DNA from: an uncultured Bacteroidaceae bacterium | GTDB lineage: Bacteria; Bacteroidota; Bacteroidia; Bacteroidales; Bacteroidaceae | Length of the DNA: 36,656 bases | Direction of reading: 5' to 3' | Assembly: GCA_905233285.1 (NCBI GenBank) | Contig: CAJODY010000039.1 | Span: 1 to 36,656 of the forward strand | In this document: positions 10,261 to 14,051 of the stretch, in pieces | Position numbering within the stretch: the stretch's first letter is position 1 | Layout: each line of letters begins with the position of its first letter | Translations under genes and position numbers: made by a program | Notes under the pieces: model-generated | Seen by the model: the letters and a program-made list of their open reading frames with translations, nothing else | Databases searched by the model: none | What the model was told of the DNA's origin: nothing

Positions 10261-10343
10261 AATTCTTTGTATTTTATTGGTATTACATTTTGTTTACAAA
10301 TATCTTAAATGCATTTCTTACTGCCAACTTTTTCTTCGTTTTT

Positions 10344-10374
10344 TTTGTATTTTATTGATAAATGCGTACCTTCG
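10344..10374 (+). promoter_or_regulatory. Promoter of the leucine operon leader
   Basis: TTTG (10344-10347), a 19-base spacer and TACCTTCG (10367-10374) form a near-consensus phylum promoter. Transcription would begin near 10381, about 13 bases before the leader peptide start, so the leader peptide has a very short untranslated region. Confidence 0.65.
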
Positions 10375-10393
10375 CGGCGCAAAACGATGAAAC

Positions 10394-10453
10394 ATGATGA
10401 CATATACAGCTATTATAAACCTATTGGCACTACGACTTACACGGTTGTGGTGA
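10394..10453 (+). CDS. leuL: Leucine leader peptide (attenuation control of leuACD)
   Basis: A 19-codon reading frame, MMTYTAIINLLALRLTRLW, ending in TGA at 10451-10453. Five of 19 codons are Leu (CTA, TTG, CTA, CTT, TTG at 10421, 10424, 10430, 10436, 10445), two are Ile, and two of the Leu codons are CTA. Its stop codon lies inside the first arm of the antiterminator at 10450-10460. This is the geometry expected for a leader peptide whose translation rate senses charged leucyl-tRNA. The peptide itself would have no function beyond being translated. It is not related by sequence to the enterobacterial leuL as far as I can see; the symbol is used by role. An overlapping frame from 10387 shows no Leu bias. 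Confidence 0.75.
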   Translation: MMTYTAIINLLALRLTRLW

Positions 10454-10513
10454 GAAAGGTATGTAACAGTATGTGTATGGGATGAAATCATAACGAACTA
10501 TAACCTTTCTCAC
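10450..10513 (+). promoter_or_regulatory. Antiterminator hairpin of the leu attenuator
   Basis: GTGAGAAAGGT (10450-10460) and ACCTTTCTCAC (10503-10513) are perfectly complementary over 11 bp with a 42-base loop. The second arm is the same segment that forms the left arm of the terminator at 10504-10540, so the two structures exclude each other. A ribosome at the leader stop codon would mask the first arm and favour termination. A ribosome stalled at the early Leu codons leaves it free and favours readthrough. Confidence 0.75.
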
Positions 10514-10540
10514 AGTGCCGTGAGGAGGGTTTTGTTTTTA
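10504..10540 (+). terminator. Attenuator terminator upstream of leuA
   Basis: A 10-bp stem (10504-10513 with 10520-10529; eight Watson-Crick and two G-U pairs), a 6-base loop AGTGCC and a T-rich tail at 10530-10539 form an intrinsic terminator 49 bases before leuA. Ending transcription inside the leader, before the first structural gene, marks it as an attenuator. Confidence 0.8.
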
Positions 10541-10588
10541 TCCGATGTTCATAGACACTGTGAGGACTATTAATTAAACAAACATATT

Positions 10589-12088
10589 ATGGCAGACAGA
10601 TTATTTATTTTTGACACTACGCTGCGCGACGGAGAACAAGTGCCGGGATGTCAGTTGAACACAGTGGAGAAGATTCAGGTTGCAAAGCAGCTTGAGGCTC
10701 TGGGTGTTGACGTTATCGAAGCCGGTTTCCCTATCAGCAGTCCTGGCGACTTCAACAGTGTGGTAGAGATTTCCAAGGCTGTGACATGGCCTACTATTTG
10801 TGCACTTACACGTGCCGTAGAGAAGGATATCGACGTGGCAGCTGATGCATTGAAATATGCAAAGCATAAGCGTATTCATACTGGTATCGGTACAAGTCCA
10901 TATCACATCAAGTACAAGTTCAATTCTACTCCCGAAGAGATAATCGAGCGTGCCGTAGCAGCCGTTAAGTATGCAAAACGTTATGTCGAGGATGTAGAGT
11001 TCTATGCTGAGGATGCCGGTCGTACCGACAATGAATACCTCGCACGTGTTATCGACGCTGTCACCAAGGCTGGTGCTACCGTATGTAACATTCCCGACAC
11101 CACAGGTTTCCGTGTGCCCAACGAATACCACGAGAAGATAAAGTATTTGTACGATCATGTTGATGCTTTTGCAGCAGGCAAGTCAATATTGTCAACCCAC
11201 TGTCACAACGACCTCGGTATGGCAACAGCCAACACCGTTGCAGGTGTGCTGGGTGGAGCTCGTCAGGTTGAGGTTACCATCAACGGTATCGGAGAACGTG
11301 CTGGAAATACATCGCTCGAAGAGGTAGCAATGATTTTTAAGACTCACCCCGACCTCGGCATCGAGACAAACATCAACACTACCAAGATTTATCCGACAAG
11401 CCGTATGGTGTCGTCATTGATGAATATGCCTGTTCAGCCCAACAAGGCAATCGTTGGTCGCAACGCATTCGCTCACTCTTCCGGCATACATCAGGACGGC
11501 GTACTGAAGAATGCCTCTACCTATGAGATTATGGACCCGAAGGATGTGGGTATTGACGACAACGCAATCGTATTGACTGCACGAAGCGGTCGTGCCGCAT
11601 TGAAACACCGTCTCCATGTCAACGGAGTCGATGTCGATGGTGAACGTCTAGATAAGATTTACGAGGAATTCCTTAAACTGGCTGACAAGAAGAAGGAAGT
11701 GACCGACGACGACGTACTCGTTCTTGCTGGTTCCGACCGTAGCGCTTCTCACAACGTGAAACTTGATTACCTTCAGGTTACTACAGGTAAGGGCGTACGT
11801 AGCGTAGCAAGCATTGGACTTCAGGTTGCCAACGAACACTTTGAGGCAGCAGCTTCAGGTAATGGTCCTGTCGATGCAGCCATCAATGCTCTTAAGAATA
11901 TCATAAAGCGTAAGATGGTGCTGAAGGAATTCACTATTCAGGCTATCTCTAAGGGAAGCGACGACCTCGGAAAGGTACACATGCAGGTAGAGCACGACGG
12001 ACATGTATATTATGGTTTTGGTGCCAATACCGACATCGTCACAGCTTCCGTTGAGGCATACATCGATTGTATAAACAAGTTTAGATAA
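10589..12088 (+). CDS. leuA: 2-isopropylmalate synthase
   Basis: A 499-residue enzyme that condenses acetyl-CoA with 2-oxoisovalerate, the first committed step of leucine synthesis. The catalytic barrel begins [18 protein letters not shown] (metal-binding Asp and catalytic Arg). It contains the metal-binding [18 protein letters not shown] and [29 protein letters not shown] and [11 protein letters not shown] lie in the linker region. The C-terminal part (about 390-499) is the LeuA allosteric domain that binds leucine, so feedback inhibition is expected. It is the first structural gene after the leucine attenuator; leuC follows after 15 bases. Close relatives such as citramalate and homocitrate synthases are less likely given the leuC-leuD context. 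Confidence 0.96.
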
Positions 12089-12103: not shown

Positions 12104-13495
12104 ATGGGAAAAACATTATTTGATAAGATTTGGGATGCCCACGTGGTTCAGAACGTGGAAGACGGCCCCACACAATTATATATAGACCGTCTATACGCGC
12201 ACGAAGTGACCAGTCCGCAGGCATTCGACACATTGAGAGACAAAGGTGTGAAGGTATTCCGTCCCGACCACGTCGTGGCTATGCCTGACCACAACACACC
12301 ATCCGACCAGCAGGAGGTTATCAATGACCCTGTAGGTCGCAAGCAGGTAGAGACACTTGCCAACAACTGTAAGGAGTTTGGTATCAAACATTTTGCAATG
12401 GGTACAAAGGACAATGGTATTATCCATGTTGTAGGTCCTGAGAAAGCACTCTCCCTGCCTGGTATGACTATCGTTTGTGGCGACTCCCACACAAGTACTC
12501 ACGGAGCAGTTGGTGCCATTGCAATGGGTATAGGTACGAGCGAAGTGGCACAGGTACTCGCATCACAGTGTATCCTGCAGTCAAAACCCAAGACCATGCG
12601 TATTAACGTCGAAGGTACACTGCCAAAGGGTACTACAGCCAAGGACGTAGCTCTTTACATCATGGCTCAGATGACTACCAGCGGTGCTACAGGCTATGCT
12701 GTTGAATATGCTGGAAGTGCAATAAAAAATATGTCGATGGAAGGTCGTCTCACACTCTCTAACCTTTCAATCGAGATGGGTAGCCGTGCCGGACTGATTG
12801 CTCCCGATGAGACTACATTCGAATATCTTAAAGGACGTGAATACGCCCCTAAGGGCGCTGAATGGGATAAGGCAGTAGCAGAGTGGCGTAAACTCTATTC
12901 CGACTCTGATGCAGTATTTGATAAGGAAGTGACATACCGTGCTGAAGACATTGCTCCACGCATCACTTACGGAACCAATCCTGGTGCCGGTATAGCCATC
13001 GACGAATGCATACCTACACTCGAAAGCATACCTGAAACCGACAAGGCTCAGTTCCTTGGCATGCTCGACTATATGCAGTTCAAACCCGGACAGAAACTTG
13101 AGGGTACTCCTGTCGATTATTGTTTCCTTGGTGCCTGCACCAACGGACGTATCGAAGACTTCCGTGCTTTCGCCAGCATCGTGAAGGGAAAGAAGAAGGC
13201 AGACAGTGTCGTTGCATGGCTCGTACCTGGTTCGTGGCTCGTTCGTCAGCAGATTATCGACGAAGGAATTGATAAGATTCTCGAGGAAGCAGGATTCGAA
13301 CTACGTCTGCCGTCATGCTCCAGCTGTCTGGCTATGAATCCTGATAAGGTGCCAGCTGGCAAACTGTCCATCTCTACGAGCAACCGTAACTTCGTAGGTC
13401 GTCAGGGACCGGGTGCACGCACCATTCTTGCTTCTCCACTTGTAGTTGCAGCTTCAGCTATTACAGGTGTTATTACTGATCCTCGTAAACTTTAA
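12104..13495 (+). CDS. leuC: 3-isopropylmalate dehydratase, large subunit
   Basis: A 463-residue aconitase-family subunit that with LeuD isomerises 2- to 3-isopropylmalate. The start [15 protein letters not shown] is characteristic. [30 protein letters not shown] carries substrate and active-site residues. The [4Fe-4S] cluster cysteines lie in [16 protein letters not shown] and in [35 protein letters not shown] is the conserved C-terminal motif. The reading frame is intact. It sits 15 bases after leuA and 6 bases before leuD, so the three genes are cotranscribed. Its activity depends on LeuD, which is damaged here as read. Confidence 0.96.
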
Positions 13496-13501
13496 ACGAC
13501 T

Positions 13502-14051
13502 ATGGCAAAAGAGAAATTCGACATCATACAGTCAACTTGTATTCCTATCGAGATTGACAACTGTAATACCGACCTGATTATTGCGATGCCTTCATGCACG
13601 ACCTACGTTTCGATGCCGATGGCAAACCGGTAGCCGACTTCGTGATGAACCTTCCGCAATACAACGAGGCTCCACATAAGGGTGTTCACGAAATCATCGT
13701 TGGTGGTCAGAACTGGGGTAGTGGTTCTAGTCGCGAACATGCAGCATGGGCAATTGCCGGCTACGGCATCCGTGTCGTCATATCCAGTTCGTTTGCCGAC
13801 ATCCATCGCAACAACCTCCTCAACTGCTTCGTACTTTCCAGCAGGAACTCTTTGCAAGCATCGACGCAGACAGCAAGACAGAGGTAAAGGTTGATGTACC
13901 TAATCAGACAGTTACAAACCTTGCTACGGGTCATTCTGAGCACTTCGAAATCAACTCATACAAGAAGTACTGTCTCATGAATGCTTACGATGACATCGAT
14001 TTCCTGCTCAGTAATACTGACAAAATCGAAGCCTTTGAGCAGAAGCGCTAA
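13502..14051 (+). pseudogene. leuD: 3-isopropylmalate dehydratase small subunit, broken by two frame-shifting deletions
   Basis: Three reading frames together spell a LeuD protein. Frame one starts at the ATG at 13502 ([27 protein letters not shown]) and runs into a stop at 13631 after 43 codons. Near 13583 the homology jumps to a second frame ([24 protein letters not shown] ... [41 protein letters not shown], shown in parts). Near 13836 it jumps to a third frame ([14 protein letters not shown] ... LLSNTDKIEAFEQKR, stop at 14049). The first gap falls where the conserved PARFLK segment should be; the second falls after LNCFVL. From family alignment I estimate about 46 and about 22 missing bases, each of the form 3n+1. 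It is either a real pseudogene or an assembly error. No leuB follows. Confidence 0.85.

Follow-up and report, generated by a model that had tools for sequence, protein, structure and literature searches.

A probable leader-peptide attenuator for leucine ahead of leuA in an uncultured Bacteroidaceae bacterium and its relatives

What controls leuA in this uncultured, gut-type member of the Bacteroidaceae? The control of amino-acid synthesis in Bacteroidota is thinly documented in the literature that we searched, and the element described here bears on that gap. The window, by which we mean the whole stretch of 36,656 nucleotides that was analysed, is contig C39 of a 2.55-Mb genome in 110 contigs with a completeness of 89.89%, and its closest named relatives by LeuA (at most 96% identity) are uncultured Prevotellaceae, Bacteroidaceae and Bacteroidales genomes, several of them titled after ruminant samples. 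A sequence-only reading had proposed that a ribosome-mediated leucine attenuator stands before leuA, and the anatomy, its conservation in relatives and the folding under an assumed ribosome footprint back that proposal. We consider it very probable that the element is a ribosome-mediated transcription attenuator which senses charged leucyl-tRNA and controls leuA-leuC(-leuD). Its parts, and the genes behind it, are the following.

10344-10374, + strand: sigma-ABfr-type promoter, with TTTG at 10344-10347, a spacer of 19 nt and TACCTTCG at 10367-10374 (from the sequence and a published consensus)
10394-10453, + strand: leader peptide frame, MMTYTAIINLLALRLTRLW and a stop, with five Leu codons of which two are the rare CTA, the stop lying in segment 2 (from the sequence; conserved in relatives)
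10413-10437, + strand: segment 1, the 5' arm of the protector hairpin, within the Leu codons of the leader (folding)
10443-10466, + strand: segment 2, the 3' arm of the protector, which contains the first antiterminator arm at 10450-10460 (folding)
10502-10513, + strand: segment 3, the second antiterminator arm (10503-10513) and first terminator arm (folding, pair counts)
10520-10539, + strand: segment 4 (10520-10531) and a T-rich tail (10532-10539), the 3' side of the terminator (sequence, folding)
10589-12088, + strand: leuA, 2-isopropylmalate synthase, the gene under control (NCBIfam TIGR00973, 650 bits against a cut-off of 598.7)
12104-13495, + strand: leuC, 3-isopropylmalate dehydratase large subunit (TIGR00170, 611.8 bits against a cut-off of 560.25)
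13502-14051, + strand: leuD region, split into three frames in the assembly (tblastn with the intact 204-aa LeuD of the relative L002)

The predicted promoter, first read as TTTG, 19 nt and a second box, is found where proposed and matches the sigma-ABfr consensus TTTG / TAnnTTTG, as given in an excerpt of a published study (PMC7366714), save for one mismatch in the -7 box. The frame of 19 residues and a stop codon agrees with the earlier description and carries its five Leu codons in the order CTA TTG CTA CTT TTG, directly preceded by two Ile codons (ATT ATA). The lack of a Shine-Dalgarno site and the tiny untranslated region had been taken as an oddity; the site is indeed lacking, but this is normal for the phylum, and a region of about 13 nt, as estimated by the sequence-only reading from the predicted start, is short without being peculiar, since in B. 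thetaiotaomicron a 5' UTR of 23 nt is the most frequent, according to the same excerpt (PMC7366714).

The stems behind the leader are mutually exclusive in their use of one arm. The antiterminator consists of 11 Watson-Crick pairs (10450-10460 with 10503-10513), as perfect as had been claimed and with the leader stop, TGA at 10451-10453, inside its first arm, and the terminator draws on the same 10503-10513. The terminator, its tail and the shared arm had been correctly recognised, but the length of 10 bp had not: it comprises 12 bp including two G-U pairs (10502-10513 with 10520-10531), followed by TTGTTTTT at 10532-10539. Its predicted energy over 10500-10545 is -16.8 kcal/mol (z = -4.0), the fold of 10412-10545 has z = -4.2, and in either case none of 200 shuffles was equally stable. 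When the window's last 450 upstream bases were dinucleotide-shuffled, 3 of 1000 shuffles passed the full rule, that is, terminator, antiterminator and Leu/Ile-rich leader together. Over 10412-10545, the fold of minimum energy (-43.1 kcal/mol, against -40.0 kcal/mol with the antiterminator forced) pairs 10413-10437 with 10443-10466; this pairing, overlooked earlier, is the protector (1:2) of a classical four-segment attenuator, and because it conceals the antiterminator arm, the terminator is left free to form. The 46-nt stretch 10430-10475, within which the inner part of the protector lies, is not exceptionally stable given its composition (z = -0.2).

From this anatomy we infer where the transcript starts, that the leader is translated, that transcription terminates in the cell and that leucine governs the outcome. 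RNA polymerase would start just past TACCTTCG and a ribosome would begin the leader immediately. With ample leucine, the ribosome would reach the stop codon in segment 2 and cover that segment, so that segments 3 and 4 could pair and transcription would stop before leuA. With scarce leucine, it would stall at the Leu codons in segment 1 and leave segment 2 exposed, which would then pair with segment 3 as the antiterminator, and leuA would be transcribed. If the leader were not translated at all, the protector would form and transcription would end. Folding of only the RNA downstream of a stalled ribosome, whose leading edge was placed by assumption 13 nt beyond the A-site codon's first base, and with energies that leave out kinetics, conforms in this model to the textbook scheme at three of the five Leu codons. 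With the A site at CTA10421, TTG10424 or CTT10436, the antiterminator is the minimum-energy fold up to 10545; at CTA10430 it is favoured only before segment 4 is made, after which the terminator is the minimum; and a ribosome at TTG10445 or on the stop codon covers segment 2, which lets the terminator form. Under this footprint antitermination fails at two of the five Leu codons, CTA10430, where the terminator prevails in the end, and TTG10445, which lies too near the arm.

This arrangement resembles known systems. The enterobacterial leu attenuator (Rfam Leu_leader) has a short Leu-rich leader with CTA control codons, a protector, an antiterminator and a terminator before leuA, all of which recur here; in the window, however, the leader is shorter, lacks a Shine-Dalgarno site and has its Leu codons spread rather than in one run, and the leaders of many of the window's relatives mix Leu with Ile codons. 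The Rfam Leu_leader model itself gave no match, either at its gathering score anywhere in the window or over 10340-10600 with E <= 5 allowed. The E. coli trp attenuator has four segments and a stop codon set so that the terminating ribosome covers segment 2; the four-segment logic and the stop placement are the same here, whereas the amino acid, the sequence and the host phylum differ. For Flavobacterium psychrophilum, a 2021 study described strong clues that leader peptides attenuate amino-acid operons, according to an excerpt (PMC9723704); it concerns the same phylum and likewise amino-acid biosynthesis operons, the family there being Flavobacteriaceae. In S. aureus, one of the Firmicutes, a comparably Leu-rich attenuator peptide acts on branched-chain amino-acid synthesis beside CodY (excerpt of PMC5794164), and short frames in long 5' UTRs of B. 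thetaiotaomicron recall leader peptides, the example given in the excerpt being another gene (PMC7366714). The sequence-only reading knew of no description of this exact leader in the phylum, and within titles and abstract openings of the open-licence literature we likewise found none of a leuA leader in Bacteroidota, the F. psychrophilum clues for amino-acid operons aside (PMC9723704). The leuA attenuator is a known mechanism, thinly documented in this phylum within the literature searched, and is well supported by sequence comparison.

For this comparison, leuA upstreams were taken from 80 named contigs and from 60 of the 126 family-sample genomes in which LeuA had a strong match; the final set comprised 126 distinct upstreams, none shorter than 120 nt, locus L056, with 73 upstream bases, being excluded before the count. 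A first calling rule found the element in 43 of the 126 (5 of 1512 shuffles) and missed a close clade with long leaders; it was relaxed after that result, giving 65 of 126, and the null was repeated (8 of 1512 shuffles). Two of the 65 calls (L042 and L126) were removed by eye, while at least three loci that the rule left uncalled (L059, L074 and L130) appear genuine by eye. A Leu/Ile-rich leader with competing stems therefore stands in 63 of 126 distinct upstreams, against the shuffle null of 8 in 1512. By genome, the attenuator is present in 41 of the 60 sampled, in 15 of 18 genera and in all eight genomes of the window's own genus, and it is uncalled in genera g11, g15 and g20, which hold ten genomes of the 60-genome sample. 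Among named loci 33 of 79 were called and 46 were not, some of the latter with scant upstream sequence; of these others, 32 were viewed by eye, and many of the 32 have a promoter-like box close before leuA. From these counts of genomes, genera and named loci, the leuA attenuator is widespread in the family yet often absent. From a phylum-wide sample, 29 of the 123 LeuA matches outside the window's own genome were read, and directly before leuA these 29 showed no leader save for one weak candidate (L150), which is not evidence of absence, since leuA there may sit inside a longer operon. In the 63 called upstreams, a relaxed -7 pattern lies at most 75 nt upstream of the leader in 58 (window counted), and in 47 of those 58 it lies 16-30 nt before the leader ATG; both are raw counts, uncorrected for chance. 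Locus L005 differs from its close relatives in that a long additional stretch follows the attenuator, leaving about 270 nt between the attenuator's end and leuA.

The leader frame is biased towards synonymous change. Over nine codons in 17 close-clade sequences (window included, L020 and L086 left out), single-base differences in the leader frame were 322 synonymous and 92 non-synonymous, while the other two frames of the same codons gave 94 and 356, and 42 and 374, respectively; these counts are pairwise and hence not independent. The sequence-only reading had named a lack of conserved Leu codons or competing stems in relatives as evidence against itself, and what we observed, stems and Leu/Ile-rich leaders in half of the upstreams and a synonymous bias within the leader, goes the other way. 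Moreover, CTA makes up 96 of the 318 Leu codons (30%) in the 63 leaders, whereas the leuA genes at named loci with a call have 10 in 1060 (0.9%), and ten of the window's frames have 18 in 462. Rare codons in the role of control codons may be expected of an attenuator.

Within the close clade, the window is unusual in one respect. Its segment 2, like that of L006, is one base shorter than in the 17 remaining sequences, and consequently its leader is shorter and the stop falls in arm 1, whereas the other 17 leaders run through arm 1 to a later stop. The stop embedded in the arm, a point emphasised in the earlier description, hence holds for the window and L006 and is not the rule, being absent in 17 of the 18 other close-clade sequences. 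With the longer leaders, arm 1 might stay uncovered when a ribosome sits at the stop, and termination might then come about through a protector re-formed behind the ribosome. The protector was reproduced in 18 of the 19 close-clade sequences (window included), each folded separately, with at least five of eight arm-1 bases sequestered upstream, and its 5' arm is supplied in most of these leaders by Asn-Leu codons, AACCTN. The sole miss is L086, whose leader is longer, with an internal insert (ALRTFGSTESLTGSEV) that separates the Leu codons from arm 1; its segment 1 may have fallen outside the fixed stretch chosen for folding.

The pairing of both stems was scored in 19 close-clade sequences (18 of them distinct) and in 31 more distant relatives, with percentages that lean high because the rows were picked by a rule demanding both stems. 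In the close clade 98.5% of antiterminator cells are paired, with no double change, and 100% of terminator cells, with one double change (60 of 500 shuffles had as many); these stems are conserved with virtually no covariation, and segment 3, which has two partners, is nearly frozen. In the distant relatives the antiterminator is GGAAGTGAG/CTCACTTCC in a different register, 93.5% paired, a level that 0 of 500 shuffles reached, and double changes occur at three of its pairs; 30 of 500 shuffles had as many, one slid control also reached three pairs with more cells, and slid controls were equal on some covariation measures. The distant terminator is 92.1% paired with double changes at five pairs, a number matched by 0 of 500 shuffles and by no slid control (at most three). 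Between the two clades, the sequence of the arms differs and complementarity is kept. Of the compensatory changes that had been looked to for support in both stems, those in the distant terminator are clear, those in the distant antiterminator are weak, and in the close clade they are absent or nearly so.

The mixture of Leu and Ile codons in many leaders raises the possibility that the leader in the window answers isoleucine as well as leucine, a variant of the attenuator reading and no alternative to it. Citramalate synthase feeds isoleucine synthesis through LeuCD. In 27 of 39 compared genomes (window included) its gene follows the leuA start at a distance of 3.5-4.5 kb on the same strand, behind leuC and leuD in those linked genomes that were mapped. 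Because citramalate synthase supplies the isoleucine route via LeuCD, mixed Leu/Ile leaders fit such mixed operons. At least three Ile codons occur in the leader of 23 of the 27 genomes with the linked gene and of none of the 12 unlinked ones, the window's among them, in which at least 6.4 kb downstream of leuA was seen without the gene at the 3.5-4.5 kb position. Four genomes (G011, G069, G087 and G146) have the linked gene yet an Ile-poor leader. Three of the unlinked ones (G014, G063 and G113) carry the gene on the leuA strand 8.2-8.4 kb downstream and may transcribe it together with leuA; in one of the 12 it is on the other strand. On the leuA tree the linkage changed only twice; on average the codons followed it in 1.7 of 2 pairs, and they never went against it, but a sign test of Ile codons against operon content was not significant. 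Counted by genome the link is strong, yet two independent changes are too few for a test. For the window itself an isoleucine response appears unlikely: relatives with the gene close behind leuA mostly have three or more Ile codons and the window has two, but these lie upstream of the Leu codons, and no citramalate synthase-like gene was found in the 26 kb downstream. Such a gene sits on another contig (C16), where for the genome's own LeuA paralogue the nearest model is citramalate synthase, with a score under its cut-off for a query that was the matched stretch only.

Could the attenuator have worked in an ancestor and now be drifting here, in a decaying operon whose leuD is broken and whose leader has lost a base? 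By tblastn, leuD falls into frames 13502-13582, 13585-13836 and 13815-14045 and is about 16 residues short of the intact LeuD of L002, owing to the one-base difference the leader is shorter than in 17 of the 18 other close-clade sequences, and many relatives are without the element. However, all four segments are intact in the window and the protector's inner helix is free of bulges, the same short leader in L006 speaks against a private error, and the split of leuD is either an assembly fault, in keeping with the 110 contigs and 89.89% completeness, or a real loss. We regard such decay as very unlikely.

Leaders of this kind also precede other biosynthetic genes. Loci before trpB, hisG and ilvD were searched for a leader with fitting codons and a terminator, an antiterminator not being required. 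Of 26 trpB loci, 24, the own genome's among them, have a leader with Trp pairs and a terminator (0 of 260 shuffles), a count that omits four of 30 loci (L285-L288) as partial or under the family cut-off. In the own genome, the leader before trpB (L272, G000:C4) is MKKIYNTYWWWQNLRLKKS, followed by a terminator, and a trp attenuator is likely there. His-rich leaders (for example MTVLALHHHHHCTF) with a terminator precede hisG in 19 of 30 family loci (L202-L231; 0 of 300 shuffles) and in 16 of 27 further class-wide loci (L232-L258; 0 of 270 shuffles); no His leader precedes hisG in the own genome. Before ilvD, Val/Ile/Leu-rich leaders with a terminator were found in 15 of 30 loci (L172-L201; 0 of 300 shuffles), the own genome's ilvD, at a contig end, being counted as a miss. 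The arm GCCTTTCTCAC recurs in several of these ilvD terminators and in leuA attenuators, for which a common origin may account. An effect in trans between leu and ilv leaders through the common CCTTTCTCAC arm was considered and discarded: the leu arm of distant relatives differs (GGAAGTGAG) and only a short match is left. At one ilvD locus (L187, G014), a terminator-like hairpin follows right after a promoter-like box, with no leader frame, and is perhaps a decayed attenuator. Upstreams of aspartokinase (30 loci) include some Thr-rich short frames, few of them with a terminator.

Competing hairpins by themselves leave the sensor unnamed, and the switch could in principle be driven by a T-box, a riboswitch or a protein instead of leader translation, but this is extremely improbable given that no Rfam family, T-box and other riboswitch models included, matched at its gathering score in the window, that a search at E <= 5 over 10340-10600 gave two chance-level matches to unrelated families (E 0.86 and 4), that the Leu codons are conserved, enriched in CTA and biased towards synonymous change, and that leaders with Trp, His and Val codons and a terminator precede the matching genes. 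Ribosome-mediated leader control of leu, trp, his and ilv genes appears common in this bacterial group.

A broader proposal follows the same lines, and we hold it tentatively, with doubt slightly ahead of belief: that the Bacteroidia, or at least this family, run much of leu, ilv, trp and his biosynthesis via classical leader-peptide attenuators, and that the leuA leader is a two-amino-acid sensor which tracks operon content, with Leu and Ile where citramalate synthase is the fourth gene and leucine only where that gene has moved away, as in this lineage. If true, the shift of Leu and Ile codons with operon content would record a sensor retuned as its operon changed. The element further implies that transcription and translation are coupled on messages that lack Shine-Dalgarno sites. 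Taken with the leaders before trp, his and ilv genes, the leuA leader suggests a simple scheme for the control of amino-acid synthesis in Bacteroidota, one that is testable in Bacteroides.
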